A DNA stretch of 64,000 nt, from contig NZ_CP018835.1 of assembly GCF_002196515.1 (NCBI RefSeq), positions 682,001 to 746,000 of the forward strand, written 5' to 3'. Positions 35,208 to 54,446 of the stretch are shown here, in pieces (position 1 is the stretch's first letter; each line of letters begins with the position of its first letter). Both the position numbers and the translations under genes were made by a program. The notes beneath the pieces were generated by a model. That model saw only the letters and a list, made by a program, of their open reading frames with translations, was not told the origin of the DNA and searched no databases. Source of the DNA: Vibrio gazogenes (lineage in GTDB: Bacteria; Pseudomonadota; Gammaproteobacteria; Enterobacterales; Vibrionaceae).

Positions 35208-35430
35208 GCCCTCACCCCACCACAATACTCACTTGCTCGCGGCTGAGCGGACACCGCGCCAAAAATCCCCCATCACGCAACGTTATCACTTTTTGTATAT
35301 AAAGCGTTCATTCGTGCTGATTTTTCATCATCACCTGACTCGTATGATGGATATACAGAGTTACTGAGACCGGCCATCAATGACCGCACAATCAGTAATG
35401 TGTATTCATATCTCACAGAGAAGGTGTCTC

Positions 35431-37955: not shown

Positions 37956-37971
37956 TCGGGAGGTTCCACTT

Positions 37972-39126
37972 ATGGAACAACTACATTTTTCCTATCAGGG
38001 ACAACAATCTATCAACAAGATGGTCCGTGTAGGTAACGTCGGTTCTGGCGATTTAGAGATTTTGCTTGAACCGAATGAGCACAACGAAATTACTATCGAT
38101 TTAATGACTTCAGTCGATAACCGTCAGCCACTTTGGCAGGCTGTCTTTGACCGTCAATTCGACGCGCAGAGCGCAGGGATGACAGTGACCATCAACGATT
38201 TTGGTGCCACGCCGGGTGTGATTGGTCTACGGCTGATTCAAGCGCTGGAACAACTCAACAGCGAACCAACCCCGACGACAGCAACACCGCTCGGGAATAT
38301 TTCCTTTATCGAAATGGGCGCACGTGACCGTGCCAAATTCATCCTCGATAACGGCAGCTTCCGTGAGGTGCTGGGCAACGAATACCACTCATTCTCGCCA
38401 TGGCTTGTTCCGCAAGGTGTGGTGCCACAAACCGATGATGGTGCTGTGGTTGCCAAAGGCACCATTGACGGAAAACCAAGTGTGGTAATTGGTATTGACG
38501 GCACCTTCCAAGGCGGCGCTATCGGTGAAATTTCCGGTGCGAAAATGGCCGCCGCACTTGAGCTGGCCCTTGAAGATGCCAAAGCCGGTCACCCAACGCA
38601 GGTGGTGCTGCTGCTCGAAACCGGTGGTGTACGTCTGCAAGAAGCCAACCTTGGCTTGGCAGCGATCGCCGATATTCACGCTGGCATCATCGCGCTACGT
38701 CAATACGTGCCGGTCACCTGTGTGGTTGCAGGTACTGTCGGCTGTTTCGGCGGCATGTCTATCGCAGCCGGTCTGTGTAGCAAACTGATTTTGACCCAAG
38801 AAGCACGTTTGGGACTTAACGGCCCGCAAGTGATCGAACAAGAAGCGGGGATTGAAGAGTATGACTCTCGTAACCGTCCATTCATTTGGTCGTTTACCGG
38901 GGGAGCACCACGGGTTGCCACCGGTTTTGCCGATGTCTTCGTTGCAGACAACGCGGAGCAAATTCGTCGCGAGGTCGCCCAAATCATCAATCAACCGCTG
39001 CCAGAAACGGCACGTTGTGAGCAAGTGGAACACTTCCTGTCTGTATTCGCAGCGATGGATAAACAAGAACAAGCCACTCCGGAACTTGTTCGTCACTATT
39101 TTGCCAAAGGAGAATCCAATGCGTAA
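37972..39126 (+). CDS. MdcC-MdcD fusion: malonate decarboxylase acyl carrier + beta (carboxylase) subunit
   Basis: 384 aa. Residues 1-100 are the acyl-carrier delta subunit, with the modified Ser in GNVGSGDLEI (Ser25, the position used in Klebsiella) and MTVTINDFGATPGV. After a Pro/Thr-rich linker (about 100-112), residues 113-384 are the MdcD carboxylase subunit (GTFQGGAIGEISGAKMA, TGGVRLQEANLGLAAIA, GCFGGMSIAAGLCS). These are normally two genes. There is no stop or start between them. GGGAGG lies upstream, and the 3' end overlaps mdcE by 8 bases. Confidence 0.93.
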   Translation: MEQLHFSYQGQQSINKMVRVGNVGSGDLEILLEPNEHNEITIDLMTSVDNRQPLWQAVFDRQFDAQSAGMTVTINDFGATPGVIGLRLIQALEQLNSEPTPTTATPLGNISFIEMGARDRAKFILDNGSFREVLGNEYHSFSPWLVPQGVVPQTDDGAVVAKGTIDGKPSVVIGIDGTFQGGAIGEISGAKMAAALELALEDAKAGHPTQVVLLLETGGVRLQEANLGLAAIADIHAGIIALRQYVPVTCVVAGTVGCFGGMSIAAGLCSKLILTQEARLGLNGPQVIEQEAGIEEYDSRNRPFIWSFTGGAPRVATGFADVFVADNAEQIRREVAQIINQPLPETARCEQVEHFLSVFAAMDKQEQATPELVRHYFAKGESNA

Positions 39127-39916
39127 TCGTGGTCTGACTTGGCTTCAAGCCTTAACCGCTCACGGCACAGCAGCCGACGGTTTTACCCCATCAGTCAAAG
39201 TGGTTGATAGCACGCTCGGTGACCAAAAAGCCCGTTTTATCGCGGTTGTGACCGATGAAAACAACGCCTTTCCTCGCGCTCGTCAAGGCGAAGTCGGTTT
39301 GCTTGAAGGCTGGAACCTCGCAAAAGCCATCAGCGAAGTGGTGGCTCAAGAAAAAGAGAGCAACAACAAAACCGCTATCGTGGCCGTGATTGATGTGCCT
39401 TCACAAGCGTATGGGCGTCGTGAAGAAGCATATGGCATCCACCAAGCGCTCGCAGCAGCAGCCAATGCTTATGCCACGGCGCGTAACGCCGGGCACCCGG
39501 TGATTGGTCTTATCGTCGGTAAAGCGATGTCCGGGGGCTTCCTTGCACACGGCTATCAGGCCAACCGCCTTATCGCGCTCGATGATGAAGGCTGTATGGT
39601 ACACGCCATGGGCAAAGCGTCAGCCGCGCGTATCACGCTACGCTCTGTCGCTGAACTGGAAAAACTGGCCGCGACCATTCCCCCCATGGCCTACGATATC
39701 CAAAACTACAGCACACTGGGTCTGCTCTGGAAAAAAGTAGCCGTAACGGACGCACAAGCACCGACGGCTCAGGATATCGACAGCATCAATACGGTTCTGA
39801 CTGAGGCACTGGCAGACATCGCTCAAGACAGCCAACGCGATCTGTCCGGACGCCTGAATGACGGTAACCGTCGTGCTTCACTCGATGTTCGTCAGCAGAT
39901 GGCGAAAGCTTGGTAA
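39119..39916 (+). CDS. mdcE: Malonate decarboxylase gamma subunit
   Basis: 265 aa. Together with MdcD it decarboxylates malonyl-S-ACP to acetyl-S-ACP and carbon dioxide. The crotonase-like fold shows VIDVPSQAYGRREEAYGI and GKAMSGGFLAHGYQANRLIA (about 85-150). Starts inside the end of the fused mdcCD gene with AAAGGAG upstream, so expression is coupled. The longer open frame upstream is a shadow of mdcD. Confidence 0.94.
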   Translation: MRNRGLTWLQALTAHGTAADGFTPSVKVVDSTLGDQKARFIAVVTDENNAFPRARQGEVGLLEGWNLAKAISEVVAQEKESNNKTAIVAVIDVPSQAYGRREEAYGIHQALAAAANAYATARNAGHPVIGLIVGKAMSGGFLAHGYQANRLIALDDEGCMVHAMGKASAARITLRSVAELEKLAATIPPMAYDIQNYSTLGLLWKKVAVTDAQAPTAQDIDSINTVLTEALADIAQDSQRDLSGRLNDGNRRASLDVRQQMAKAW

Positions 39917-39992
39917 TATTCCCCCTCGCAGCATAACCCGAAGCATCCCGGAGTGGATAACAGGGTTATGCTGCCCTTAAAGGTAAATGATT

Positions 39993-40946
39993 ATGTTTCA
40001 TGCTGTTTTGAATGCCATTGCCCCCATTTTTGTTGTGTTAGGTTTGGGTTATTTTTGTGGCTACCGCAAAATCGCGGATAATAAGAATGTGTCTGTCCTG
40101 AACGTGTTTGTCATGCGCTTTGCGCTGCCAACCGCTCTCTTTACTGCGACTTGGCATACCCCTGTCGCCGGCTTCATCGCTAAATTGCCTTTGATTGTTA
40201 TCTTAGTGCTGGCGATGTGGGTCCTGTGGGCATTCACCTACTACATTGCCCGTAACGTCTTCCATAAAGAACCGGCTCAGGCAGCGGTTTACGCGCTGAC
40301 TATTTCACTGCCCAACTACGCGGCACTCGGTGTGCCAATCTTAAGTGAAACCATCAGCGGTGCTACCGGGAGTGATATTGCACTCAACGTTGCGATTGCA
40401 ATTGCGTGCGGTTCAATCTTCCTTTCGCCACTGACTTTAATGGTCTTGGAAAAAGAAACCAAAGCAGAATTTAAAGATGCACCGATGAGTGCATTGATTG
40501 TGCCTCTGCTGATGAAAGCACTGAAAAACCCGATTGTGTTATGGCCGATTTTGGGGACGATTTTCTCTTGCTTTGGGACAACAATGCCCGACTTGCTGAC
40601 CCATGCTTTAAAACCTTTGGCCGCTGCCGCAGGTGGTGGTGCGCTGTTCCTCACCGGTCTTATCGTTTCAGCACGTCAGCTCAAAATCAATGGTGCGGTT
40701 ATCTTTGGCTTCGTCCTCAAGAACTTGATTCAACCGGTGATTGCATACGGGATTGCCATCGCCTTTGGCCTGCCAGCGGCCTTACTTGCAGCGTCGGTGT
40801 TCCTCATTGCATTGGCAACAGGTTTCTTCGGGGTGATGTTCGGAAACGGCTTTGGTGTTCAGGACGAAGATTCAGAAGGTACATTGCTGCTGTCAACGAT
40901 TCTCTTTGCGATCACAATGCCGCTGTTTATGTACTGCTTACTGTAA
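39993..40946 (+). CDS. mdcF: Malonate transporter, AEC family
   Basis: 317 aa with about ten membrane segments, an auxin efflux carrier-type permease. The MdcF proteins of this operon import malonate. The second ATG (39993) has AAAGG nine bases upstream and is preferred to the one six bases earlier. The operon position between mdcE and mdcG matches Klebsiella mdcABCDEFGH. Confidence 0.88.
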   Translation: MFHAVLNAIAPIFVVLGLGYFCGYRKIADNKNVSVLNVFVMRFALPTALFTATWHTPVAGFIAKLPLIVILVLAMWVLWAFTYYIARNVFHKEPAQAAVYALTISLPNYAALGVPILSETISGATGSDIALNVAIAIACGSIFLSPLTLMVLEKETKAEFKDAPMSALIVPLLMKALKNPIVLWPILGTIFSCFGTTMPDLLTHALKPLAAAAGGGALFLTGLIVSARQLKINGAVIFGFVLKNLIQPVIAYGIAIAFGLPAALLAASVFLIALATGFFGVMFGNGFGVQDEDSEGTLLLSTILFAITMPLFMYCLL

Positions 40947-40955
40947 GAGGTGATA

Positions 40956-41582
40956 ATGAAACTCGTCTATCAACCCCACGACCTACTTTGGGTGAACCAC
41001 TTATCTGATGATGAACAACCACCCGCGTGGTTTCACCTGACAGACCTGATTTCACGGCCAGTCGTGGTGAGACGAGCCCCATACCAAGCCGACCGCATTG
41101 CGGTCGGTATCCGCGGTTTCAGCCGTTCACAACGTCACGCCAGCTTGGTGACTCCGCAAGCAATTGTTCGCCATCTCACACCGGAGCAATTAGTCGAACA
41201 ACAGGGCTGGTACACGCAGTATCAAAACCATCCCCTGCCTCATTGGCAAACACTCGCAGACATCGACGATATTTTCCGTTCTTATTCACTCGCATGGGGT
41301 ATCACCGGCAGTCTTGCCTTTGAACTGGCAACCGGCATGCATACCGCCAATCCGCAAAGTGATATTGACCTGCGGATTTTGGCACCGACACCATTGGATA
41401 AACAACAAGCCAGCGAACTGGCGCAACAATTGGCAACACTCGCCCAAAGGCCGGATGTGCAAATTGAAACAGCGCTGGGGGCGTTTGCACTATCCGAGTG
41501 GTTGCAAACCTCTGGCAGCGTAATGATCAAAAGTAACCAAGGGCCGTTTTTAAGCGCGAACCCTTGGCAAACAGACGCTTAA
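40956..41582 (+). CDS. mdcG: Phosphoribosyl-dephospho-CoA transferase
   Basis: 208 aa. Transfers the phosphoribosyl-dephospho-CoA group made by MdcB to the acyl carrier. The nucleotidyltransferase motif is GSLAFELATG, then QSDIDLRI with the paired Asp (about residues 115-140). It starts ten bases after mdcF with AGAGGTG upstream; a GTG start six bases earlier is less likely. Confidence 0.92.
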   Translation: MKLVYQPHDLLWVNHLSDDEQPPAWFHLTDLISRPVVVRRAPYQADRIAVGIRGFSRSQRHASLVTPQAIVRHLTPEQLVEQQGWYTQYQNHPLPHWQTLADIDDIFRSYSLAWGITGSLAFELATGMHTANPQSDIDLRILAPTPLDKQQASELAQQLATLAQRPDVQIETALGAFALSEWLQTSGSVMIKSNQGPFLSANPWQTDA

Positions 41583-41597
41583 TGAAGGCACGTTTTT

Positions 41598-42521
41598 ATG
41601 GCAACTCTCTTCACTTATCCCGGTCAGGGAACTCAAAAAGCAGGCATGCTCACCGAGCTCAATGCATTTCCTCTCGGTCAGCAAATCTTACAACAAGCCA
41701 GTGACCATTTAGCCCAGGATATCCTCAGTTTGGATAACGAAACGGCACTGCTGAATAACCGCAATACGCAAGTCGCATTAACAGTGTGCAGTTACGCCTG
41801 CTCACAGATTCTGCGCGACCTTGGCATTGAACCCGATTATGTTTTGGGTCTGTCTATTGGTGCATTTCCTGCGGCCATCTCCGCCGGTATTCTCACCTTC
41901 GAACAAGGGCTGGACTTAGTGGCACGCCGCGGTGAATTAATGGCAAGTGCCTATCCGCAAGATTACGGTATGGCCGCGGTGATTGGGTTAAGTCTACCGG
42001 TATTACAAACACTGTTGCGTCAGGCACAGGCACAAGGTCACCCAGTGTTTATCGCCAACATCAACACCGAATCGCAAGTGGTCATCTCCGGCAGTGTCGC
42101 GGCGCTCAATGCTGTGTGCGAACTCGCGTTAGCCAAACAGGCCACCAGCGCAAAACTGCTCAAAGTGAATGTACCGTCACACTGTGAGCTGCTTGCGCCT
42201 CAGGCTGAAATATTTAACCAAGCCTTTGATGGTATTGACCTTGCGCGCCCGAAAATTACCTATGTGAGTGCCAATGCGGCCCGCGTGCTCTACCCGACCG
42301 ACCGTATCCGTGACGACTTAGCTCATAATATGGCCAGACAGGTGCACTGGTGGGAAACGGTTGCAATGCTCAAAGAACGCGGTGTGACCTTAGCGATTGA
42401 GATGAAGCCGGGCAGCGTACTGACCAACTTGTGTAAAGCCAGTATGCCGGATACTATCGCAGTAGCGATGGCATCAGAAAACCTGAATAATCTCGTGGCC
42501 CTGATGCGTCAATATGGTTAA
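41598..42521 (+). CDS. mdcH: Malonyl-CoA:ACP transacylase of malonate decarboxylase
   Basis: 307 aa. Loads malonyl onto the carrier subunit to start the cycle. It carries YPGQGTQKAGM at the N-terminus, the nucleophile Ser in GLSIGAFPAAISAG (about residue 85), and the conserved His in NVPSHCELL (about 198). FabD-type fold. It is 15 bases after mdcG and the last enzyme of the operon. Confidence 0.93.
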   Translation: MATLFTYPGQGTQKAGMLTELNAFPLGQQILQQASDHLAQDILSLDNETALLNNRNTQVALTVCSYACSQILRDLGIEPDYVLGLSIGAFPAAISAGILTFEQGLDLVARRGELMASAYPQDYGMAAVIGLSLPVLQTLLRQAQAQGHPVFIANINTESQVVISGSVAALNAVCELALAKQATSAKLLKVNVPSHCELLAPQAEIFNQAFDGIDLARPKITYVSANAARVLYPTDRIRDDLAHNMARQVHWWETVAMLKERGVTLAIEMKPGSVLTNLCKASMPDTIAVAMASENLNNLVALMRQYG

Positions 42522-42548
42522 AAAATCCAGCGATATCAATGAGACATT

Positions 42549-43505
42549 ATGAACAGACGTATACCGACCACGATTAAACGGTTAGAGATTTTCATCAACT
42601 ACATGGAACAGACCAACATGAACCAAGTGGCGGAAACGATGGATATCAACACCCTCTCGGTATATCGCGCCATTCATGCATTAGAAGAAGATTTAGGCTG
42701 TGTGCTGTTTGAAAAACGTGGCCGCAGCCTCGTGCCATTGCAGGCAGCGCAGATCCTCTATCAACAGTGTGTCACAACACTCAGCGACCTTTCCCGTGCA
42801 ATTGACAACACCCAGATCGCCGCAGGGATCACGCCGAAGAAAATACGCGTCGGCTCCGTCAATTCACTGACCATCGACTTAGTGCCCCATCTGTTGACCG
42901 CTTATCGCGAGCGCCGCCCTGATGTCCAACTGGAGTTTCATTCCGGCTCGAACTGCGAGCTGCTTGATAAACTCAAACGTTCAGAGCTCGATGTACTGAT
43001 GATTTATGGCGACCAACTGCTGGAACACAACACCAGCTACACCGCGATGAAACTGTTCGATGACCAAATCAGCTTTTCTGTCGCCATAACCAGTGAACAA
43101 CCCAAACCATCGCAGGTGCCGATTCAGGCAGACTACCTCCGTCGTCAGTCTTACATGACCCTCACCAAAGGTTTTGGCCTACGGGAGGCCTTCGATAGAG
43201 TGCTCGCCAAACTGGATGGCAAAGTCGAGATTCACTCTGAGTTTTCCAGCATCTTCGGCTTGAGCTTCGCTTTAAAAGCCGGGGCTTATGCCGCGCTATT
43301 ACCGACCCGCATGAGCGAAGTGTCTGCTCAAATTGGCTTGAAGTTTTACCCGCTGGCTCCAGAGCTCGCCGAATCACACGGTATCTATCTATTAATGAAC
43401 CGCGCCAGCGAACATAACCCGGCAATTCGGGCCTTAATTGCCGAGTGTCGGATGTACAGCCTACGCTGGCAGAAGTCGGCGCATCCGGCAGACAGTGCGC
43501 ACTAA
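42549..43505 (+). CDS. mdcR: LysR-type regulator of malonate utilisation
   Basis: 318 aa. The N-terminal winged helix-turn-helix (NQVAETMDINTLSVYRAIHA, residues 23-42) is followed by a substrate-binding domain (about 95-300). It lies 27 bases after mdcH on the same strand, so it is likely co-transcribed and activates the operon in response to malonate. Slightly unusual for LysR regulators is the same-strand location. Confidence 0.88.
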   Translation: MNRRIPTTIKRLEIFINYMEQTNMNQVAETMDINTLSVYRAIHALEEDLGCVLFEKRGRSLVPLQAAQILYQQCVTTLSDLSRAIDNTQIAAGITPKKIRVGSVNSLTIDLVPHLLTAYRERRPDVQLEFHSGSNCELLDKLKRSELDVLMIYGDQLLEHNTSYTAMKLFDDQISFSVAITSEQPKPSQVPIQADYLRRQSYMTLTKGFGLREAFDRVLAKLDGKVEIHSEFSSIFGLSFALKAGAYAALLPTRMSEVSAQIGLKFYPLAPELAESHGIYLLMNRASEHNPAIRALIAECRMYSLRWQKSAHPADSAH

Positions 43506-43528
43506 AGTCGCGTTGACAACTTTAGTGC
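43499..43528. terminator. Perfect 10-bp hairpin overlapping the mdcR stop
   Basis: GCACTAAAGT and ACTTTAGTGC pair perfectly across ten bases; the first arm contains the mdcR stop codon. The following AGTTCTC is only weakly U-rich. Probably the operon terminator. Confidence 0.5.
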
Positions 43529-43593
43529 AGTTCTCATGTCAACCATCCCTGAATGAAGGCATATCATGTTCCGTTAACCATTCAAAACCCTGC

Positions 43594-44757
43594 TCAGGCT
43601 TTTTCACTTTCCGGTAACGGTAATCGACGTTCGTTGTACACGACCAAATACACGAAGAATAGTATGCAGAGACTACACAAAGTCAGGACTATACCTAAAT
43701 GCTGAGACAACCCTACCAAGACCAAACCACCACCTACCATCAAGTAGTACATCAAGCCCAAGATCGCACCGGCAGTCCCCATACACTCTTTATAATTGCG
43801 CAGAGCGCGCGCTAGTATGTTCGGTATCGCTATACCGTACGCCATGACCACTAACATCATCGGCAATACGAACCATACGGTCTCCTCAAACAATAACAAC
43901 AAGACACCGCCACTCAGGGAAAGAATACACGCCAACGTGAGTTGCGACGAAAACTGCCAGTGTTTGCTAACCAAAAATTTGTTGATCACCGCACCGATAC
44001 CGACACCTGCTGCCAGAATCATACCGGTATAACCAAACCACGCATCCGGAACGTCAAGCTTAGAGAAAAGGAACGGTGCCAGCTGGTAGTAACTAAACAT
44101 GCAAATGTTAAATAACGCGACTAGCGATGCGCTGAGCCAAATATCGCCGTCCTTCAACATTTTAACCAAAGTTCCTCCAAACGAACTCGCCGATATCTGC
44201 TTTGGGCATGTTTCCGGTAGTTTCAAATACGCATACCCCAAAAGTACAGCAGCCAACACGGCCAAGCCTCCGAATACGCCTTGATATCCCCAATAATACG
44301 TCAGCAATGCACCACTTAAGACCCCCACAGCAGGACTAACGGCCATCGCCATCCCCATGAGCGAAAAAATTTTTGCCAATTCAAGACCGTCAAAGCGATC
44401 TCGTATCGCAGTTTGCGTCCCCACGGATCCAACAGATGCACCAAACGCCGCCAACATACGTGCGGCTAACAACACGATGAAACGACTGCTTAATAAAGCA
44501 ACGATTGAAGCGATTAAATAGAGTATGAGACCCAACAAAATGGTAGGACGCCGCCCAATGACATCGCACATACGTCCCCAAAACACCACGCCCAATGCAA
44601 AGGCGAAGAAGTAACATGATAGTGTTTGTGCTGCTATTGCCGCGCTAACTTGGAATCCATCAGCAATATAGGTCAAAGCCGGACTGTATATCGTTTCAAC
44701 CACTTGGGGAAACATCATCAATGACGTTGCCAGAGTCAGGGTCAGTCTACGTTTCAT
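43594..44757 (-). CDS. MFS exporter, Bcr/CflA type (NimT-like pairing)
   Basis: 387 aa with twelve membrane segments. The first conserved loop WGRMCDVIGRRPTILLG is the MFS motif A (about residues 55-72). The overall pattern resembles the Bcr/CflA drug-resistance group. I chose ATG 44757 (MKRRLTLTLA); one thirty bases earlier is possible. A divergent AraC regulator starts 99 bases away, and such pairs (for example NimR-NimT in E. coli) export toxic compounds. Confidence 0.85.
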   Translation of the reverse strand: MKRRLTLTLATSLMMFPQVVETIYSPALTYIADGFQVSAAIAAQTLSCYFFAFALGVVFWGRMCDVIGRRPTILLGLILYLIASIVALLSSRFIVLLAARMLAAFGASVGSVGTQTAIRDRFDGLELAKIFSLMGMAMAVSPAVGVLSGALLTYYWGYQGVFGGLAVLAAVLLGYAYLKLPETCPKQISASSFGGTLVKMLKDGDIWLSASLVALFNICMFSYYQLAPFLFSKLDVPDAWFGYTGMILAAGVGIGAVINKFLVSKHWQFSSQLTLACILSLSGGVLLLLFEETVWFVLPMMLVVMAYGIAIPNILARALRNYKECMGTAGAILGLMYYLMVGGGLVLVGLSQHLGIVLTLCSLCILFFVYLVVYNERRLPLPESEKA

Positions 44758-44856
44758 AAAAAATCCAGATCCAAAAATAAGATGCATACGGTAGCATCTT
44801 ACCCATAGAGACGATTACAATAAGAAAGACAATAAATTTACAAAATAGGACACAAT

Positions 44857-45624
44857 ATGGCATGGCTTCAGGCACAGGATAGTTTTAATCCTGATGCCTT
44901 AGACAATCGTGTATTGGGAATTGCTGCCGAATTGGCACAGCACGACTCTGGCGTCCATTATCATGACAAAGGGCAGTTATTATTCTGCAAACAAGGCAGT
45001 ATGCGGATCACGCTAGATAACAGCCTTTGCCTGCTCCCTCCGGTAAGGGTTGCTTGGATTCCACCTCAGATAGAACATCGTGTTAAAGTGAATGACGTCG
45101 TTGGCTATCGTTCCATTTATATAGATTGCAATCACTATGATGGCATGCCTGAACAGGTTACCGTATTCACCGCCTCACCACTTTTGCGTGAGGCTCTGGA
45201 ACGTATTGCGTTAGCACCATTCAACACGAACTGGCAAGATGGCGCTTACGCTAATATTCTGGCCGTCTGCCTTGACGAAATCACATCAGCACCGCTTGAA
45301 GTAACGTTACTCCCACTGCCCACTGATCGGCGTCTACGCCACCTCGTTGCTCAAGAAGCGCTCCCACCGCTGAACAGACTTTCACATCGTATAGGCGCTT
45401 CCGAAAAAACGATTAGCCGAATATTTCAACGCGAAACGGGTTTGAGTTACCAGCAATGGCGTCAACAATGGCGATTGAATAAAGCGATTGAAATGCTCTC
45501 TCTTGGGTGGAGCCAATCTGAAGTGGCCTCTCAATTGGCGTTCTCCAGCGACAGCGCCTTCACTACTTTTTTCAAGAATAGGGTTGGTTGCCCACCGAAA
45601 ACCTATATGGAAAGGCGAAAATAA
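44857..45624 (+). CDS. AraC-family regulator, cupin-type N-terminus (NimR-like)
   Basis: 255 aa. A cupin-like sensor (about 1-100, HYHDKGQLLFCKQGSM) is followed by a two-helix-turn-helix AraC domain (about 170-255, LSHRIGASEKTISRIFQRET). It is divergent from the Bcr-type exporter it probably controls. It ends at MERRK. The intergenic 45625-45940 downstream is AT-rich with no gene seen. Confidence 0.87.
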   Translation: MAWLQAQDSFNPDALDNRVLGIAAELAQHDSGVHYHDKGQLLFCKQGSMRITLDNSLCLLPPVRVAWIPPQIEHRVKVNDVVGYRSIYIDCNHYDGMPEQVTVFTASPLLREALERIALAPFNTNWQDGAYANILAVCLDEITSAPLEVTLLPLPTDRRLRHLVAQEALPPLNRLSHRIGASEKTISRIFQRETGLSYQQWRQQWRLNKAIEMLSLGWSQSEVASQLAFSSDSAFTTFFKNRVGCPPKTYMERRK

Positions 45625-45940
45625 ACGCTGTTTGGGACAAAAAAACTGTCGGGTATCACACTGAAATTCGGCTGACGAATCAGAAATCCCCTAAAAAAAT
45701 AGGCATGCGAAATGTTTCATTTATAAGCCTTTTTATTCCCATTACTTATAAATAACATAAATAATACCCATTTATTTTTATACAGACCTCGAATAAAACA
45801 TAGATAAACGACATATACAATATTCAATTGTTGAAAAAACGAGCAATTCCCCTAGCTTTTATAATGGAACACATATGCACCCAAACGCATTATTGGTGGT
45901 GCCAATGTGCTGTTAAGGCTCAAAACACAATGGAGTGATT

Positions 45941-46834
45941 ATGAATGTTTTAACAAAATGTAAGCTAGCATTGGGAATCATAGCGATATTTTTTTCATTG
46001 CCAAGTTTTGCGGTACCGTGTTCGGACTGTTCAAATGGATTTGAACGGGGCCAAGTTCCTCGGGTTGATCAGTTAGAATCCAGTAGAGGACCTTATTCGG
46101 TAAAAACTATCAACGTTTCTAGACTTGCCAGAGGGTTTGGTGGTGGCACGATCCATTACTCGACGGAATCAGGAGGCCAGCAAGGTATCATTGCGGTCGT
46201 TCCGGGCTATGTTTCTTTAGAAGGTAGTATTAAATGGTGGGGCCCACGTTTGGCATCTTGGGGCTTTACGGTGATTACGATCGATACAAATACGATTTAT
46301 GATCAACCTGACAGTCGAGCAAGTCAGCTCAGTGCAGCAATCGATTATGTCATTGATAAAGGTAACGATCGAAGCTCTCCGATTTATGGATTAGTGGATC
46401 CAAATCGAGTCGGCGTCATTGGCTGGTCTATGGGCGGTGGCGGCTCCCTCAAACTGGCAACAGACAGAAAGATTGATGCAGTGATCCCTCAAGCCCCTTG
46501 GTATCTTGGATTGAGTCGTTTTTCTAGTATTACTTCACCAACGATGATCATTGCATGCCAAGCCGATGTTGTGGCACCAGTGAGCGTACACGCTTCTCGC
46601 TTTTATAATCAAATCCCGGGAACCACCCCAAAAGCATATTTTGAAATTGCGTTAGGCAGTCATTTTTGTGCCAATACAGGGTACCCTAGCGAAGATATCT
46701 TGGGGCGGAATGGTGTTGCATGGATGAAGCGCTTTATTGATAAAGATGAACGCTATACTCAATTTTTATGTGGACAAAATTTTGATAGCAGTCTTCGCGT
46801 CAGTGAATACCGAGACAACTGTAGTTACTATTAG
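45941..46834 (+). CDS. Secreted polyester hydrolase, PETase-like (type II)
   Basis: 297 aa alpha/beta hydrolase with signal peptide to about residue 24. It is close to Ideonella PETase along most of its length. Triad: Ser163 (GWSMGGGGS), Asp209 (CQADVVAPV) and His241 (GSHFCAN). Substrate-cleft residues Tyr90, Met164 and Trp187 are kept. Cys206 and Cys243 match the second, PETase-type disulfide. The positions corresponding to Ideonella Ser214 and Ile218 are His217 and Phe221, as in ordinary cutinases. Extra Cys27 and Cys30 lie near the mature N-terminus. The natural substrate is probably cutin-like or aliphatic polyester. GGAG precedes the ATG; a terminator follows. Confidence 0.92.
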   Translation: MNVLTKCKLALGIIAIFFSLPSFAVPCSDCSNGFERGQVPRVDQLESSRGPYSVKTINVSRLARGFGGGTIHYSTESGGQQGIIAVVPGYVSLEGSIKWWGPRLASWGFTVITIDTNTIYDQPDSRASQLSAAIDYVIDKGNDRSSPIYGLVDPNRVGVIGWSMGGGGSLKLATDRKIDAVIPQAPWYLGLSRFSSITSPTMIIACQADVVAPVSVHASRFYNQIPGTTPKAYFEIALGSHFCANTGYPSEDILGRNGVAWMKRFIDKDERYTQFLCGQNFDSSLRVSEYRDNCSYY

Positions 46835-46872
46835 TGATACATATAATTCATAGTAAATCAGCAATTCTTGTC

Positions 46873-46902
46873 AAGTCAGAGCAAGTATGTTCTGACTTTT
46901 TT
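46873..46902 (+). terminator. Terminator of the polyesterase gene
   Basis: AAGTCAGA and TCTGACTT pair perfectly, followed by six T. Loop about ten bases. Confidence 0.8.
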
Positions 46903-46986
46903 ATGTGCTGAATGAATCGGATTTTAGTACCTGCTGTTTTTGATAAATGATCGCTGAAAATCGAAGAACTCTAAAATGGTGTACCG

Positions 46987-47329
46987 CTAGTTCAGGGGGA
47001 GATTTACACATGAACCATCCACTACTACAAACCCTTTGAATTTAAAAAACTCAACGAATGAATACGCAAAAAAAGAAGCTGACAATATAAATCGATAATT
47101 TGTCTTAAAGAACGGAATCCAATCAATATACTGAGATCTAACTGTGTGTATCCTTCCTTTCAATTGCAATTTTTTTATTCTTTTTTAGGGAAGAGGCATC
47201 AATATACTGGGTAAGTTCCTTAATCTGCTTCGAATAAGATTTACTAAAGCCTATATCCTTGAAAACTCGAGTCCATAGGAAAAAGAACAAGATCGCAGAA
47301 GTGTAGTATTGTCTTCTTATTCTGTACAT
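46987..47329 (-). pseudogene. Small membrane protein split by a frameshift, next to the NTPase gene
   Basis: Two overlapping minus-strand frames (47329-47138 and 47169-46987, +1 apart) overlap around an A7 run near 47175. The first begins MYRIRRQYYTSAILFF with one hydrophobic segment; the second continues with a further hydrophobic segment (NYRFILSASFFAYSFVEFF). It starts six bases after the NTPase stop, so it was the second gene of that operon. Whether this is a mutation or programmed slippage is unknown. No family was recognised. Confidence 0.45.
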
Positions 47330-47334
47330 ATTAT

Positions 47335-50300
47335 TCAGCGCCTATAGAGATTCACTTTTATTTCATCCTTGAAGTAGCTCTCACTCCATGACGAAATAAT
47401 ATTTCTTGAATTAAGCCATTTAACCAATTCCTGATTCTCAGATGTGTTTTGTAGTCTCGGCGTGTTGTACCCCGTTTTTATTTCGGAAAAGGGTTCAGGA
47501 AGATTAGCCAAAACGTGACGTACTTCATCATCATCATCCATTAAATCGTGATATTTGTTAAAGAGTGAAATTTGAGTCCCAATAGGCTGAGAGTGTATGA
47601 CCAGAGATTGAACAATATTTCCATCAAGGTTGGATATCTTGGCATCGGTACTGTTAATAATAGGGCCGACAAGGGCAGCTCGCTCTGGAAGGTTCACGAG
47701 CGCATCCAGATCCATCAATTTGATTACTCCCAGCTTAGCTACGTTATCAATTTCAGATTGAAGAAGCACTTCCAGGAAGTCATCGTCGAGTTCAAAGTTG
47801 TCTGGATTAGCCAAGTATGTGTTGATATTAGCCACTACGAATCGTACCTGTAAATCCCTACTATCAGAGAGCTCTTCCAAACTCTCCTTAGTGAATGTAA
47901 TTTTTCCTTCATCTATAAGAATTCGAAGTTTTGATAGCTCAAAACCTGTAGGAAACTCTTTGAAAAATTCAGGTAAAGCGCTCACATATTCTTTATAGCT
48001 GATATCAGACAGCGAGCCCGCGTTAAATAGGAACACACGCAGTTTCTGTGAATCAGAGTCGCTGGGTATAGACTCTTTCAGGATAATTTTACGAACATCA
48101 TCTCGATCCAGATACCCAACCAAGATATCCACCTCAAATCCTTCACTTTCCATAAAAGCAAGACAATTCAACCAAGTTGGTTCGATCATGCATAGCTTAA
48201 ACAGCATTTCATACAATCTTTCAGGAACATCCTCTAAAGATGGAAGCTGTATTGTCTGCCGCTCAAGAAATGTTCTCAGATCATCTTGCTCAAGCTCATC
48301 GTGACAAATCACAGCCAGAATAGTGGAAGCATCCTCTTCTGAATTCTCTTGAATTACCAAAAGAATATCACGTAAATAGCGGTCAAAATCGCGTTCAACT
48401 CTCTGCAATAAAATTGGGCTATGCATCGATCGTATGGTCGTGAAGTTCTTCTTATGTAGCGGCTCAAAATCGCTCTCTCCCTCAAATGCCTGATAAATGT
48501 ATTCCATATTTGCAAGCGTGAGTTCGAAAAGTCCCCGCTCGAACATGACGTTTACGACTTCATGATGTCCTTTTATTGCGGCCAGATCTTTAACTTCAAA
48601 ACCAAGGCAAACAAGTCGTTCTGATGCCAGGCCAGGTACATTCAGCAGAATCTCAGGAAGGTTTTCCGCAACAAACGTCGGAAATTCTGCAAACTCCATT
48701 GCAAGCTTTTTGAGTAAATTTTCCGGTAAGTTCGAAACTATCTGGATAACGTGAGAAATATTATTGGCGATGGCCGTTAGAACAAAATCATCCCAACTAT
48801 TAGCCAGCCCCGAAAGTAAACCCGCAACATTTTGGCCACTACTGTAATAGGCATCGAAAAAGTTTTCACAGCTTTCGAATTCTGACGAAAGAAATTTAAA
48901 GAGCTTTTTCGTTTGCTCAAAGTAAAGCGTCCGGTCACTCAGAAGATTATCGACAAGTTTGACGTTTAAGACATAACTTTGCCGGAAATCCTCATCTCGC
49001 ATCGCAGCGATGACCTCTTTGGGATTGTCGAGCGGAAAACTCGGTTCAGGCGTGACAAATGCCCGAATCTGGATCAAAAATTTGTTGTCATTGGGAGATA
49101 AACGACCTGAGTGAAAGAGTGATGTGTATTGGTAATAGCTATCGTCAAGATAACCTTCCAGAATCAGAAAACGGGCAAGATCCCCATTTTCCCCAAAATT
49201 CTCAAAAAGATCCCGTATGCGGTCAGTATTCACTCGTAATAACTCGTTCAACTTTGTTGTACGAAGTGTTGGGAGTTTAACTCTTAGATCTCGTATTTGG
49301 CTTAAGATCTTGTTTTTATTATCAGTAGTCTTGCTTTCGAGCTCTTCCTTGCGCTGCTGGTAGGATTTTTGAGAATCTATCTCTTTTTGCCATTGGGACA
49401 CATTGACTCGGCTCGAATGACCTCTTCTGCCTGAGTAGTAGTAGTTTAATTGAGACGCTTCTATCAATTGCTCAAACTCATCATGGCTAACAAGATTTTT
49501 AAGTGGAATCCAACCGTAACCGTGATTTAAACTAACACCGGCAATGTCCTCTGGAAGCTTCTCAATCAGTGCCATAGCATAAATTTGCCGTAATTCTTTC
49601 AGGTCTGATGGCGTCTGCCGCTCAGCGGCTTCAAGCTGCGCTTCAAGTTCCGAGATCTCCGCTTTATACGTTGCCTCGCCCTGTTCAATCAGTTCATTCT
49701 TGTGGTGCAATATATTGGCGAGCATCCCCTCTCCACGGTGTAGTTGCTCAAAATCTCTTGGGTAAACATTTTTATAGATCAGGATTGCGAGGAGCTTGTT
49801 AGCGTCGAGCAGGTTCTCTTCATCTTTTTCTAAATTAGCAACATAAATGGCATATTCATTAAAGATGTTCTGAATCAATCTCAGATCGTTCAGGTATCGT
49901 GAAACCTCTCTCAGGAACTGCCGATTCAGACGGCCATCCAGTTTAAGCCTGTTTCCCTCAGCCAATACCATATCGATTGAATTCGATGTATTGATAATCG
50001 GTATAACAGGTATAATAAATTCAAAGAACTTAGTGCGATCCGTGTTGACAAACATATCGTCGCGCAAAGCATAAAGGAATCGGATGGTGCGTTTTACCCC
50101 TGCATTCTCGTTCACAAGGCTATTAATTTCACGCAGTGTGACGAAAATATCGGCATTATTAAATCGATCTAAATCCTCAATGATGACAAGATCGTAATCG
50201 GTTGACTGGAAGAAATAGACTATTTCGTCTAAGTGACGATTTAGTATGGAAGTCTGATCCTCATGTGCTGGCTTTATCTCTACGCTTTTCAACGAAATAC

Positions 50301-50961
50301 TCTTGAGTGATAAGCCAAAACTGGCAACATACAAGTGATGTAGTATCACCCAAAAGAATATGACCGCGAACCCAAAAATCCCTAAATTAAGCCAATTACT
50401 GAGGGTCAGAGGTTCGAAAAAAGTGCCGCTGATAATTTTTTCTCGCTGATGAAATACAAACCAAAGCGAGACAATGCCAAGCATCATATAAAAAGATTTC
50501 AAAATCGACCAAACGCCGGGCGACTGAATTCTTTTGAACCGTGATAATGGCAGCTTATTAGCGTCTGCACCATAGAGCATTTGCTGAAGAATGCTTCTTT
50601 CAATCTCTTGACGGCTCACCTTTCTCTCATCTGCTTCATCATCTACGTCAATTTCAGGAACAAACGCAGCGAGAGAAATATGAAGCGCAGGCCGCCGATA
50701 CTTTTTCAAGAAGGATTGAATGATGCTGCTCTTACCTGAACCATAAGGGCCAGTCAGAGCAATATTGGAGACTTTCTCATTGTTTGTCGCAAACAGAATC
50801 GCTTCGGAATATACGCCATCTTTGTCTGCTTCATCAGTAGGCGCAAGGTCTACGAATTTTGATTGGCTGCTGGCAGAGTTATCTTTGCTTTCGAGCCATA
50901 ACGCAATACTATTCATGCTGTTGGCAAGCCAACGAGTTAGGGAAATGATGGTCTTTGTCAT
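47335..50961 (-). CDS. YobI/KAP-type P-loop NTPase with membrane segments
   Basis: 1208 aa. The Walker A motif GPYGSGKSS lies at residues 71-79 and the Walker B LVIIEDLDRF near 275. A pair of membrane helices (about 150-170 and 190-215) is inserted between them, as in KAP and YobI-like NTPases. A coiled-coil stretch follows (about 430-560), then some 600 residues of helical repeats with no recognised domain. KAP-type NTPases include phage-exclusion proteins, so a defence role is plausible but inferred. Flanked by an interrupted ORF upstream and a frameshifted small membrane protein downstream. Confidence 0.85.
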   Translation of the reverse strand: MTKTIISLTRWLANSMNSIALWLESKDNSASSQSKFVDLAPTDEADKDGVYSEAILFATNNEKVSNIALTGPYGSGKSSIIQSFLKKYRRPALHISLAAFVPEIDVDDEADERKVSRQEIERSILQQMLYGADANKLPLSRFKRIQSPGVWSILKSFYMMLGIVSLWFVFHQREKIISGTFFEPLTLSNWLNLGIFGFAVIFFWVILHHLYVASFGLSLKSISLKSVEIKPAHEDQTSILNRHLDEIVYFFQSTDYDLVIIEDLDRFNNADIFVTLREINSLVNENAGVKRTIRFLYALRDDMFVNTDRTKFFEFIIPVIPIINTSNSIDMVLAEGNRLKLDGRLNRQFLREVSRYLNDLRLIQNIFNEYAIYVANLEKDEENLLDANKLLAILIYKNVYPRDFEQLHRGEGMLANILHHKNELIEQGEATYKAEISELEAQLEAAERQTPSDLKELRQIYAMALIEKLPEDIAGVSLNHGYGWIPLKNLVSHDEFEQLIEASQLNYYYSGRRGHSSRVNVSQWQKEIDSQKSYQQRKEELESKTTDNKNKILSQIRDLRVKLPTLRTTKLNELLRVNTDRIRDLFENFGENGDLARFLILEGYLDDSYYQYTSLFHSGRLSPNDNKFLIQIRAFVTPEPSFPLDNPKEVIAAMRDEDFRQSYVLNVKLVDNLLSDRTLYFEQTKKLFKFLSSEFESCENFFDAYYSSGQNVAGLLSGLANSWDDFVLTAIANNISHVIQIVSNLPENLLKKLAMEFAEFPTFVAENLPEILLNVPGLASERLVCLGFEVKDLAAIKGHHEVVNVMFERGLFELTLANMEYIYQAFEGESDFEPLHKKNFTTIRSMHSPILLQRVERDFDRYLRDILLVIQENSEEDASTILAVICHDELEQDDLRTFLERQTIQLPSLEDVPERLYEMLFKLCMIEPTWLNCLAFMESEGFEVDILVGYLDRDDVRKIILKESIPSDSDSQKLRVFLFNAGSLSDISYKEYVSALPEFFKEFPTGFELSKLRILIDEGKITFTKESLEELSDSRDLQVRFVVANINTYLANPDNFELDDDFLEVLLQSEIDNVAKLGVIKLMDLDALVNLPERAALVGPIINSTDAKISNLDGNIVQSLVIHSQPIGTQISLFNKYHDLMDDDDEVRHVLANLPEPFSEIKTGYNTPRLQNTSENQELVKWLNSRNIISSWSESYFKDEIKVNLYRR

Positions 50962-51124
50962 ACAATGCTTAACTTTTTAAAACTTCTTTAATTAATGGCA
51001 ATATTGCTTCTGGAAAAACTAATTCTGCTAGCGGGTTGAACTTAATGAATGGGAAAGCAATTATGTTTTCAATCTCTGTTATTATAAATACAGTCTAAAA
51101 AAACTCAGTAGCGATTATTGATTT

Positions 51125-51448
51125 CTAACAACTTTGACTAAAAAGGACAAGCAATAAGTTCAAGTTCCGTCGGTGATCAATTCGAGAAAGTATTTGTACT
51201 GAGGGCTTTTGCATCTTATTTATGGAAAAAGGAAGCTGAAAACCTGATTCCGGCAACTCTATATAATCCTCTGTCCCAGTCTTACCTGTTATTAGCATCG
51301 ACGGTGTAAAATTTCCAGATTGACTACGACGTACAATCCAATCCAGACCATCGAATATCTGCTGTACATCTGAATAATTAACAAACGAATCATGGTCGTG
51401 GGTTAATAGATCATCGATAGAAATTTATTGTTCACCAGATAGGTTCAT
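51125..51448 (-). pseudogene. Interrupted ORF upstream of the NTPase gene
   Basis: A 107-codon frame begins MNLSGEQ and has one in-frame TAA at codon 8. It then continues ISIDDLLTHDHDSFVNYSD, VQQIFDGLDWIVRR, MLITGKTGTEDYIELPESG and so on to TAG. The amino acid composition looks like real protein. No family recognised. It may be a decayed partner of the NTPase, or translation may start internally. The rest of 50962-51648 shows no gene. Confidence 0.4.
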
Positions 51449-51648
51449 TGTTTACGCGCTTATCAGGACACACACCTTAAAGTACGTCATATTTCGGAAT
51501 CGGAGGCTACAACAAGACAAACTACTAAAACCGAACCCTGTCGCATTTCCCTAGGCAACACCACTAAAACCATGACAAACAGTGTTTTTTGCCGCTCGCT
51601 TCTTTTATCCTATGAGCCATTCAATCCACACCGACCAAACATTGCTTT

Positions 51649-52527
51649 ATGAAAACATCTCTCGACCATTTGCCTGAATCCAAACAGCAGGAGCTTGCTA
51701 CCATATCGACTATTCTGCGCGATACGCTGGAAGACTATCTTCAGGGCAAAACAGCGAGTAAAAGCGAGTTTCGTATTGTGAAAATCATCCTGTTCGGCAG
51801 CCACGCCAAAGGCACTTGGGTCAACGATCCGGTCAATGGCTATATCAGTGACTACGATATTCTGGTGATTGTGAATAAAGCCGCACTGGTTGAAGAAGAT
51901 GTCGTCTGGCAACGCGCCAAAGAGCAAATCGACCGTAAAGTCACTTCCGCACCGCTGGGATTGATTGTCCATGATTTGCAGGAAGTGAACGAACGGCTAC
52001 AACAAGGGCATTATTTCTTCAAAGATATCTGCGAAGAAGGGATTGAACTGTTTGCCGCCACACCAAAACCGCTGGCAGAGCCGGGGGATTTAACCGAAGC
52101 AGAGCAACGGGAGATCGCTCGTAAGCATTATGAACAGTGGTTTACGAGTGCCAACGAATTCTTTATGTGTTTTGAACTCATGACTGCGAATCATCATCTG
52201 AAGACTGCGGCATTTCAGCTTCACCAAGTCACGGAAAAATTGTTTGCCTGTACCCTGCTCACCTGCACCAATTATTTACCCAAATCCCACAACATCGAAA
52301 AGCTGGGGAAACTATGCGCCCAAATCGATGCTGAATTTGCAACCATTTTCCCGCTCGACAACAAATTCCACCGCCGCAGCTTCCGCCGCCTGCAACGCGC
52401 CTATATCGAAGCCCGCTACTCGGAGCATTATGAGATCACCGAAGAAGAATTGGCATATCTGGAAACAGAAGTGCAGCGGTTGAAAGGATTGGTGGAACGG
52501 GGTTGTTTGAAAAGAATAATTAACTAA
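51649..52527 (+). CDS. Nucleotidyltransferase-HEPN fusion protein (copy 2)
   Basis: 292 aa, same design as the protein at 5.9-6.8 kb: nucleotidyltransferase (GSHAKGTWVNDPVNG, SDYDILVIV) then HEPN domain ending in RRSFRRLQRAYIEARYSEH. Residues 1-155 and 199-280 are nearly identical to copy 1, but residues 157-198 (KHYEQWFTSANEFFMCFELM onward) differ at most positions. An RNA 2'-phosphotransferase gene follows after 30 bases on the same strand, so the pair is probably one RNA-acting operon. No promoter was pinned down. Confidence 0.86.
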   Translation: MKTSLDHLPESKQQELATISTILRDTLEDYLQGKTASKSEFRIVKIILFGSHAKGTWVNDPVNGYISDYDILVIVNKAALVEEDVVWQRAKEQIDRKVTSAPLGLIVHDLQEVNERLQQGHYFFKDICEEGIELFAATPKPLAEPGDLTEAEQREIARKHYEQWFTSANEFFMCFELMTANHHLKTAAFQLHQVTEKLFACTLLTCTNYLPKSHNIEKLGKLCAQIDAEFATIFPLDNKFHRRSFRRLQRAYIEARYSEHYEITEEELAYLETEVQRLKGLVERGCLKRIIN

Positions 52528-52557
52528 CTTGAATATGTAATAGAGAAAATAAAATAT

Positions 52558-53127
52558 ATGACTTCCCAAAATCAACTCAAGCAGATCAGTAAATTTTTAA
52601 GCTTTGTGCTACGCCACAAACCAGAAGCGATTGACCTAACGCTCGACCCACATGGATGGGCTAATATTGATGAGCTGATTGATAAAGCATCTACTTCAAA
52701 TGAAATCGAAGATATTGACAGAAATTTAATTCAAGACGTTGTAGATACCAATGATAAAAAGCGTTTCATTATCTCTGAAGATGGTCAGCATATTCGAGCT
52801 AACCAAGGACATTCGATTCATGTCGATTTACAACTACAACCTTCTGTTCCACCAGAATTTTTATATCATGGTACTGCGACCCGATTTTTAGATAGTATTC
52901 TCGAAGAAGGATTAAAACCACAGCAACGCCAGCATGTCCATTTATCTGCAGATAAGGAAACAGCTGTCACTGTTGGCCAGCGATACGGTAAACCTGTTAT
53001 TTTAAAAATAAAATCCCAACTCATGTATGAGCAAGGTTTTGAATTCTATATTTCTGAGAATGGTGTTTGGTTAACGAGTTATGTGCCTTCGAAGTTTATA
53101 ATCGACAAATGTCTGATCGAAGTTTGA
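52558..53127 (+). CDS. kptA: RNA 2'-phosphotransferase (Tpt1/KptA)
   Basis: 189 aa. Removes an internal 2'-phosphate from RNA using NAD+, giving ADP-ribose 1'',2''-cyclic phosphate. The N-terminal winged helix carries LSFVLRHKPE (catalytic Arg-His pair) and PHGWANIDELI; the C-terminal ADP-ribosyltransferase-like lobe has IRANQGHS, FLYHGT and HVHLSADKETA. Bacteria do not need it for tRNA splicing, so it may serve RNA repair or defence. It forms a putative operon with the preceding nucleotidyltransferase-HEPN gene. Confidence 0.92.
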   Translation: MTSQNQLKQISKFLSFVLRHKPEAIDLTLDPHGWANIDELIDKASTSNEIEDIDRNLIQDVVDTNDKKRFIISEDGQHIRANQGHSIHVDLQLQPSVPPEFLYHGTATRFLDSILEEGLKPQQRQHVHLSADKETAVTVGQRYGKPVILKIKSQLMYEQGFEFYISENGVWLTSYVPSKFIIDKCLIEV

Positions 53128-53238
53128 AATTTGTCTGTTGTAGACGACAGCACCCATGCGTTTGTGAATCTCTATTTCATGTTCTTGACCCGTCCTAACT
53201 AAGGTTGACACTTTTCCAGCCACAAATTGGAGAATGTC

Positions 53239-53640
53239 ATGAAATCAATAGGTAAACGTACACAGCAAGATTATTCCCTTGCCTTTAAATTGGCGGTTGT
53301 TGAGCAAGTTGAAAAAGGTGAAATGACTTATCAACAGGCTCAAGAGCGGTATGGTATTCAAGGTCGCTCGACTGTTTTAGTTTGGCTTCGTAAGCATGGT
53401 CAACTAGATTGGTCTTTAGGCGCCTCTGAATTAAAGGGAAAAGGTATCGCTATGTCTCAGTCATCTTCCCCACAAACACCTGAACAACGCATTAAAGAGC
53501 TTGAACAACAATTAGAAGAAACTCAGCTAAAAGCCGATTTTTTCGAGGCTGTTGTAAAAGTCATGGACAGAGACTTCGGAGTCCGTCTTTCAAAAAAGCG
53601 CAAAGCCGAATTATTGAGGAAAAAACGCTTTCAAAGTTAA
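53239..53640 (+). CDS. IS3-family transposase OrfA
   Basis: 133 aa. N-terminal helix-turn-helix (YSLAFKLAVVEQVEKGEMTY, then QQAQERYGIQGRSTVLVWLR) binds the element ends; a leucine-zipper-like coil (EQRIKELEQQLEETQLKADF) follows. GGAG precedes the ATG. The frame ends RKKRFQS at an A6 run where ribosomes may slip back one base into OrfB. Confidence 0.92.
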   Translation: MKSIGKRTQQDYSLAFKLAVVEQVEKGEMTYQQAQERYGIQGRSTVLVWLRKHGQLDWSLGASELKGKGIAMSQSSSPQTPEQRIKELEQQLEETQLKADFFEAVVKVMDRDFGVRLSKKRKAELLRKKRFQS

Positions 53641-53642
53641 CC

Positions 53643-54446
53643 GTGACAAAAGCTTGCTTGTTTATCGGGATTTCACGCCAAGCATACTACAAGCGCTGCG
53701 AAGCAGAAAAAGAACGAGTCTCCCATGAGACTCATGTGCTCATTGCTGTGAAGAAAGAGCGTCTGGTACAACCTAGAATAGGTGTCAGAAAACTAAAATA
53801 TATTTTGTCACAAAAGTGTTTAATCATCGGCCGAGACCACTTGTTTGCTCTTCTTAAAGCGAACCAACTTCTTGTTCCAACAAGGCAAGCATACCATCGC
53901 ACGACGAACAGCCATCATCGATTTCATTGTCACCCTAACATCATAAAATCGGGTTATGCGCCTGAGCGTCCCGAGCAGTTGTGGGTTGCAGATATTACTT
54001 ATCTACCGACTCGTGAGGGAGAAACTTATCTCAGTTTAGTCACGGATGCTTACTCTCGGAAAATCGTTGGTTATCACGTTGATGACAACATGAAAACTCA
54101 ATCCGTTAAGCAAGCGTTTATTCATGCGCTTAAAAGTAGAAGAACTCACCAACCACTCATTCATCACTCAGATAGAGGGTTACAGTATTGTTCGGCAGAG
54201 TATCAAACGCTTCACCAACAGAATGGCGTCAGTTGCTCAATGACAGATGGGTATGATTGTTACCAGAATGCGTTGGCAGAACGAGTCAATGGAATACTCA
54301 AAAATGAATATCTTCTTAACAAGCCTGCGAATTTAGAAGAAGCACGAAAGATGGTTGCAGAGTCGGTAAAAATCTATAATCAATATAGGCCACACACAGC
54401 TTTAAAATACAAAACGCCCGATGAAGTACATCGAGCGTTTTACTAA
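53643..54446 (+). CDS. IS3-family transposase OrfB (DDE integrase domain)
   Basis: 267 aa from the GTG. The DDE triad is visible: Asp in WVADITYLPT, Asp in HHSDRGLQY, Glu in NALAERVNGILK, with the K/R seven residues later. In the -1 frame, upstream codons read EEKTLSKL across the A6 run GAGGAAAAAACG, so the active transposase is expected as an OrfAB frameshift product. The HTH_21 region (PRIGVRKLKYIL) precedes the core. Confidence 0.92.
   Translation: MTKACLFIGISRQAYYKRCEAEKERVSHETHVLIAVKKERLVQPRIGVRKLKYILSQKCLIIGRDHLFALLKANQLLVPTRQAYHRTTNSHHRFHCHPNIIKSGYAPERPEQLWVADITYLPTREGETYLSLVTDAYSRKIVGYHVDDNMKTQSVKQAFIHALKSRRTHQPLIHHSDRGLQYCSAEYQTLHQQNGVSCSMTDGYDCYQNALAERVNGILKNEYLLNKPANLEEARKMVAESVKIYNQYRPHTALKYKTPDEVHRAFY

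Follow-up and report, generated by a model that had tools for sequence, protein, structure and literature searches.

A PET6 orthologue of the type IIa PET hydrolases in a variable chromosomal slot of Vibrio gazogenes

The closest described relative of the protein reported here is PET6 of Vibrio gazogenes DSM 21264, for which a crystal structure (7Z6B) and activity data have already been published (PMC9679969). According to that report, PET6 carries the triad Ser163/Asp209/His241 and the disulfides 277–294, 206–243 and 27–30, and acts on PET with an optimum at 1–1.5 M NaCl and 45–50 °C; at 50 mM NaCl, PET6 variants gave 0.02–0.2 μM product, compared with 21–45 μM (extrapolated) from IsPETase. 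Among pNP esters, PET6 is reported to favour C2–C4 (PMC5881046). IsPETase of Ideonella sakaiensis (6EQD, 6QGC) belongs to type IIb. A review describes type IIa as a hybrid of types I and IIb, and its definition of type IIa includes Trp at IsPETase position 159 and Phe or Tyr at position 238 (PMC11219463). Ser214 and Ile218 have been called “unique to IsPETase”, with His and Phe “otherwise strictly conserved” at these positions (PMC10080609).

The window analysed here, a 64,000-nucleotide stretch of the V. gazogenes genome, contains on its plus strand an open frame (45941–46834, stop included) that runs from an ATG at 45941 to a TAG ending at 46834 and encodes an α/β-hydrolase of 297 residues with a signal peptide. 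The ORF listing also gives an in-frame GTG start at 45935, which overlaps a ribosome-binding-site-like GGAG (45932–45935, +); this putative site lies 5 nt before the ATG and suits a start at 45941. Residues 1–24 (45941–46012, +) would form a Sec-type signal peptide, with the cut placed from the sequence between SFA and VPC, inside a region (residues 1–33) where the structural model has pLDDT values below 50; the published PET6 construct begins at the same Val (primer PET6_for, PMC5881046). Inspection by eye for a sign of lipoprotein export found no lipobox before Cys27 (SFAVPC).

The sole Pfam match of the protein is PF12740 (PETase; 337 bits, E 9.4e-101). In a phmmer search of solved structures 7Z6B ranked first (E 1.3e-181), and the best 60 of 179 matches were PET hydrolases, cutinases and their relatives. 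An AlphaFold model, computed with an input alignment of 38 window and locus proteins, reached a mean pLDDT of 84.6 and a pTM of 0.84, with residues 1–33 unreliable, and its best Foldseek match was again 7Z6B (TM 0.89/0.95, 95% identity, rmsd 1.4 Å). Vibrio homologues are reported to share more than 79% identity at full coverage with V. gazogenes PET6 (Weigert et al., PMC9679969), and at 95% the window protein falls within this group. The NCBIfam equivalog model for BHET hydrolases, NF051441, scored 278.7 bits, far under its cut-off of 520, and thus does not claim the protein. A frame of 297 codons that resembles PET6 so closely is not a chance one. We conclude, with a probability of roughly 0.95, that the window protein is a PET6 orthologue and a type IIa PET hydrolase, that is, a serine esterase that is presumably Sec-exported and disulfide-stabilised. 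The gene is an ordinary one of an already known kind. The initial annotation, which had proposed a PETase-type polyesterase similar to V. gazogenes PET6, named the right family and the right relative; polyesterase activity would follow by orthology to PET6. The comparison it had suggested with PET6 and IsPETase gave 95% and about 50% identity, respectively.

DNA comparison shows that pet6 is a single-gene unit. The DNA that stays with the gene in related Vibrio genomes covers 45742–46943 (+): the shared stretch is 45742–46941 in the V. gazogenes-like genome G060 (92.0%), 45742–46943 in V. ruber (84.2%), 45782–47008 in G201 (90.2%) and only 46011–46837 in G109 (75.1%). Behind the gene lies an intrinsic terminator-like hairpin (46873–46898, +) with an 11 bp stem, a 4 nt loop and a T run, one of three such sites found in 45600–47400 compared with 1.3 expected in shuffles; the other two are inside pet6. 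To the left of pet6, the window has a malonate decarboxylase cluster with a LysR gene, followed by an MFS gene (43594–44787) and an AraC gene (44857–45624), and to the right a gene for a 1208-residue YobI-type NTPase. Beside its pet6, G060 lacks the AraC, MFS and YobI/Tmn-type NTPase genes that adjoin the gene in the window; going upstream from pet6 in G060, the first ORF of 90 aa or more is the LysR gene, with no MFS or AraC gene between them. Other genes flank pet6 in V. ruber and G201.

The AraC gene shares its strand with pet6 and ends 316 bp upstream of the pet6 ATG, which could suggest that pet6 forms an operon or regulon with this regulator and the MFS transporter. Such an arrangement is very unlikely: the 20 kb surrounding each of the other four Vibrio copies of pet6 hold no counterpart of either gene; AraC relatives (E ≤ 1e-60) occur in 88 of 227 Vibrio genomes but, among the five pet6 carriers, in the window's genome only; and the shared DNA begins at 45742, with the terminator-like hairpin following pet6. 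The first of these grounds led us to discard an operon with the upstream genes.

Further out, G060, G201 and V. ruber preserve the order of the flanks, the exception being a multi-copy gene at 51649, whose best copy in G201 is about 90 kb from pet6. In a further relative, G130, which has no pet6, both outer flanks are also present and are separated by about 15.5 kb of different DNA. In the window, G060, V. ruber and G201, pet6 stands alone as a unit, in a variable slot common to all four. As to marks of an integration site, no tRNA was found across the window and no Rfam match in 42000–54000; a search of 43400–51700 for repeats bounding pet6 as a mobile unit gave only imperfect pairs or triplets of 20–30 nt, none of them close on both sides.

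The neighbours of pet6 deserve a short description of their own. The YobI-type P-loop NTPase gene (47335–50961, −; 1208 aa) has a Pfam score of 412 bits and matches the PADLOC model of the anti-phage system Tmn (E 5e-88). The slot may hold exchangeable defence genes, because no counterpart of this Tmn-matching NTPase lies in the 20 kb surrounding the other four Vibrio copies of pet6. The malonate decarboxylase cluster (35380–43505) encodes an alpha subunit, CitG, MdcD/carboxyltransferase, a membrane transporter, MdcG and an acyltransferase, then LysR, and is 97% identical in G060; for its part at 41598–43505, V. ruber gave no match, G201 one of 57 bp, and G109 one of 69% on its second contig.

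The gene at 51649–52527 encodes a 292-residue protein with nucleotidyltransferase and HEPN domains (Pfam), and another such gene lies at 5909–6784. This protein has 44 matches in the window's genome, 27 of which cover at least residues 1–287 (one with a stop), and many copies stand in a tandem-like array on chromosome 2 at 811–882 kb. At 834–854 kb, copies, some of them truncated, are interspersed with numerous small ORFs whose appearance, judged by eye, is that of possible toxin/immunity modules. At E ≤ 1e-40 the family is present in 8 of 227 Vibrio genomes, each with at least 10 matches; G001, G127, G130 and G153 are the genomes concerned outside the five pet6 carriers. Directly after the window copy comes a gene for an RNA 2'-phosphotransferase of the Tpt1/KptA family (52558–53127; Pfam, 178.8 bits). 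The same gene order recurs in V. ruber, and on chromosome 2 what looks by eye like the start of a similar protein comes after one of the array copies (842133).

Matches to pet6 at E ≤ 1e-30 were found in 5 of 227 Vibrio genomes, the window's own included, and Weigert et al. list homologues from V. gazogenes, V. spartinae, V. ruber, V. zhugei and V. palustris (PMC9679969). The five Vibrio proteins group together in a 91-row tree (support 100/100), and within their clade the window protein pairs with that of G060 (100/95). Compared with the window at the DNA level, the pet6 unit and its flanks are 92.0% versus 94.7–97.2% identical in G060, 90.2% versus 90.4–90.8% in G201, and 84.2% versus 73.3–85.4% in V. 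ruber, where one flanking piece reaches 94.8%. Divergence of pet6 across the four genomes of this gazogenes group is about that of the flanks or slightly more, a pattern that fits common descent. The more distant copy in G109 sits elsewhere, not in the slot of the gazogenes group. It is 80% identical to the window protein, compared with 63% for one flanking acyltransferase-like protein; at the DNA level, pet6 stands at 75% and part of the malonate decarboxylase region at 69%. The 80% against 63% could reflect a recent transfer between two Vibrio lineages, or merely slow change. This slot comparison bears on the suggestion of Weigert et al. that PETase genes have moved horizontally within Vibrio (PMC9679969).

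Several observations would be compatible with a common secreted esterase or lipase that only looks like a PETase and lacks polyesterase activity: short pNP esters are the preferred ones for PET6 (PMC5881046), neither PET powder nor the natural polymers tested are reported to have strongly activated pet6 (PMC12211005), and some of the top structure matches are deposited as “lipase” (8AIS, 7EC8). The Foldseek titles of these two entries, however, name a cutinase and a PET-hydrolysing enzyme, PET is reported to be degraded by the 95% identical PET6 (PMC9679969), and PET6 is listed among the clones reported to produce clearing on PET-nanoparticle or PCL plates. A mere lipase or esterase is highly improbable.

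The assignment as a type IIa PET hydrolase was examined residue by residue. The protein has C27, C30, S163, W187, C206, D209, H217, F221, H241, C243, C277 and C294, so that the triad and all six disulfide cysteines stand at PET6's residue numbers, the pairing itself being predicted. Window protein and PET6 further share the loop motif TGYPSE, V91/S92/Y248 and sodium-site residues. Conservation was read from an alignment of 91 rows, namely the window protein, IsPETase and 89 homologues; these are the best 80 of 114 confirmed loci, 6 further copies from those loci and 3 Vibrio copies (G060, G201, G109), after 6 duplicate rows had been dropped (L001, L083–L086, L089). The sample was picked by likeness to the query and is heavy in Pseudomonadaceae, Psychrobacter and actinomycetes. 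All 89 homologues have the nucleophile Ser163 (46427–46429, +) and the triad residue Asp209 (46565–46567, +). At the aromatic clamp Trp187 (46499–46501, +; IsPETase W185), 62 of the 89 have Trp, 26 Tyr and one Phe. Cys206 (46556–46558, +), one half of the active-site disulfide DS2, is conserved in 72 of 89; the other half, Cys243, follows the triad residue His241 and the type IIa mark Phe242 (46661–46669, +). The extended loop of residues 244–252, ANTGYPSED (46670–46696, +), has 9 residues compared with 6 in the 17 homologues that lack DS2. These features separate cleanly: all 72 rows with DS2 have Trp at 162 and a loop of 8–12 residues, whereas in the 17 rows lacking DS2 position 162 is always His and the loop always has 6 residues.

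The window protein combines the Ser-His-Asp triad and a G-W-S-M-G motif with the second pair of cysteines by the active site (C206/C243), Trp162 and Phe242 at IsPETase positions 159 and 238, and the extended β8–α6 loop of 9 residues. It departs from type I cutinases, which have His at IsPETase 159, one disulfide and a short loop, and also from type IIb, where Ser or Thr would be expected in place of Phe242. By these residues the protein is type IIa, because it belongs to the larger DS2 set and has Phe242, which decides. The fold is like that of the marine type IIa enzymes Ple628, Ple629 and PE-H and the cutinases PsCut and PbauzCut (52–56% identity to the window protein). IsPETase superimposes with an rmsd of about 1.4 Å and shares the second disulfide, Trp at 159 and 185 and the extended loop; it differs in S214/I218 and S238, where the window protein has H217/F221 and F242, and it lacks the tail cysteine pair.

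The initial annotation had read the segment His217 to Phe221 (46589–46603, +; IsPETase S214 to I218) as making a mixed active site, with cutinase-like residues beside a PETase-type second disulfide. Each residue, including the triad and Trp187, is where it had been placed, and the combination is real; its supposed singularity did not survive the alignment. Position 217 is His in 69, Tyr in 18 and Phe in 2 of the 89 homologues, which makes His not quite universal, and position 221 is Phe in 86, Leu in 2 and Ser in one. The Ser/Ile pair of IsPETase, here a reference only in a sample that holds no known type IIb enzyme, occurs in none of the 89 and is absent from all 72 rows with the second disulfide. 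The reading suggested by the title of the initial annotation, in which the enzyme is truly specialised for PET and its active site is a new hybrid of the cutinase and IsPETase ones, is hardly credible: DS2 and Trp187 do co-occur with His217/Phe221, but DS2 with Phe221 is the common state (His/Phe in 50/89, Tyr/Phe in 18/89, Ser/Ile in 0/89), type IIa is in the review's terms already a hybrid of I and IIb (PMC11219463), S214/I218 are described as unique to IsPETase (PMC10080609), and the PET6 variants are reported far below IsPETase at 50 mM NaCl (PMC9679969). By sequence, His217/Phe221 with DS2 is the rule for the enzyme type and IsPETase the exception; comparison with IsPETase alone made a family rule seem an oddity.

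The additional cysteines pointed out in the initial annotation, Cys27 and Cys30, are present as Cys27-Ser-Asp-Cys30 (46019–46030, +) and correspond to the third disulfide (DS3, 27–30) of the PET6 crystal 7Z6B. In the window model the N-terminal tail with C27/C30 has pLDDT values below 50, and the proposed bond in the window protein therefore rests on 7Z6B. According to the PET6 authors, such a bond has not often been described (PMC9679969); it belongs to the description of PET6 and not to those of Ple628, Ple629, PE-H, PsCut and PbauzCut, which are set apart on the basis of these descriptions. Mors1 of Moraxella sp., a type IIa-like enzyme, has a third disulfide Cys60–Cys109 that a review equates with that of PET6 (PMC11509169). 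The two bonds are not the same, and the only cysteines after residue 30 in the window protein are 206, 243, 277 and 294. A CX2-4C pair in the tail before Arg-Gly 36–37 occurs in at least 19 of the 89 homologues, a lower bound, since row starts were set by a simple rule and some may miss the true N-terminus. Carriers are the other four Vibrio proteins, together with 15 rows that include Ketobacter, Aestuariicella and Marinobacter; 17 of the 19 come from gammaproteobacterial records or families and 2 from one “Proteobacteria bacterium” of unstated class. The 21 Psychrobacter rows have one extra cysteine in the domain and no tail pair. The 25-residue N-terminus alone gave no phmmer match among solved structures.

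The window protein differs from that of G060 at 15 of 297 positions, 2 in the signal peptide and 13 in the mature chain. By eye, the same 13 separate it from 7Z6B, and for this reason G060 is taken as V. gazogenes or very near. The substitutions relative to PET6 include Y93L, S95G, Q98K and A210V. Leu93-Glu94-Gly95 (46217–46225, +), where PET6 has Tyr93 and Ser95, lies near Tyr90 (IsPETase Y87); Leu93 is unique to the window protein among the 91 rows, and Gly95 occurs in 2 of the 89 homologues. A210V affects a residue of the chloride pocket described in PMC9679969. With three substitutions by the active site or chloride pocket (Y93L, S95G and A210V), activity may differ from that of PET6. The published sodium-site residues R61 and A63, and D282, S284 and V287, are present. 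The first sodium site is given in PMC9679969 as Arg61, Ala63 and Phe65; the window protein has Gly65 followed by Phe66 and agrees at the other numbers checked, and “Phe 65” may be a slip in that text. It is conceivable, but unlikely, that the tail CX2-4C is characteristic of a gammaproteobacterial lineage of type IIa enzymes and has a periplasmic or extracellular role, such as tail anchoring or redox-dependent folding, and that at the same time Y93L/S95G, close to the tyrosine of the oxyanion hole, and A210V make the substrate range or salt dependence differ from that of PET6.

For the type IIa PET hydrolase proposed here, Ser163, activated by His241 and Asp209, would attack the ester carbonyl to give an acyl-enzyme from which water frees the acid, with the substrate chain in the Tyr90/Trp187 cleft. 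By orthology with PET6, esters with short acyl chains should be its preferred substrates; it should also hydrolyse BHET and polycaprolactone, degrade amorphous PET slowly and be most active near 1 M salt. His217 and Phe221 would pack against the Trp187 region and should limit its side-chain motion, which would fit a weak action on PET at low salt. Against a generally low PET activity stands the report that PET6 gave 1.1 μM product at 1 M NaCl and 50 °C, compared with 0.9 μM (extrapolated) from IsPETase (PMC9679969). In nature the enzyme probably acts on some other ester or polyester, and PET hydrolysis would be a side activity: pet6 is reported to be weakly transcribed, if raised by BHET, and its host to show no growth when BHET, TPA or ethylene glycol is the sole carbon source (PMC12211005). 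The window enzyme is a further natural variant of a crystallised and assayed marine PET hydrolase, useful for comparison of salt dependence.
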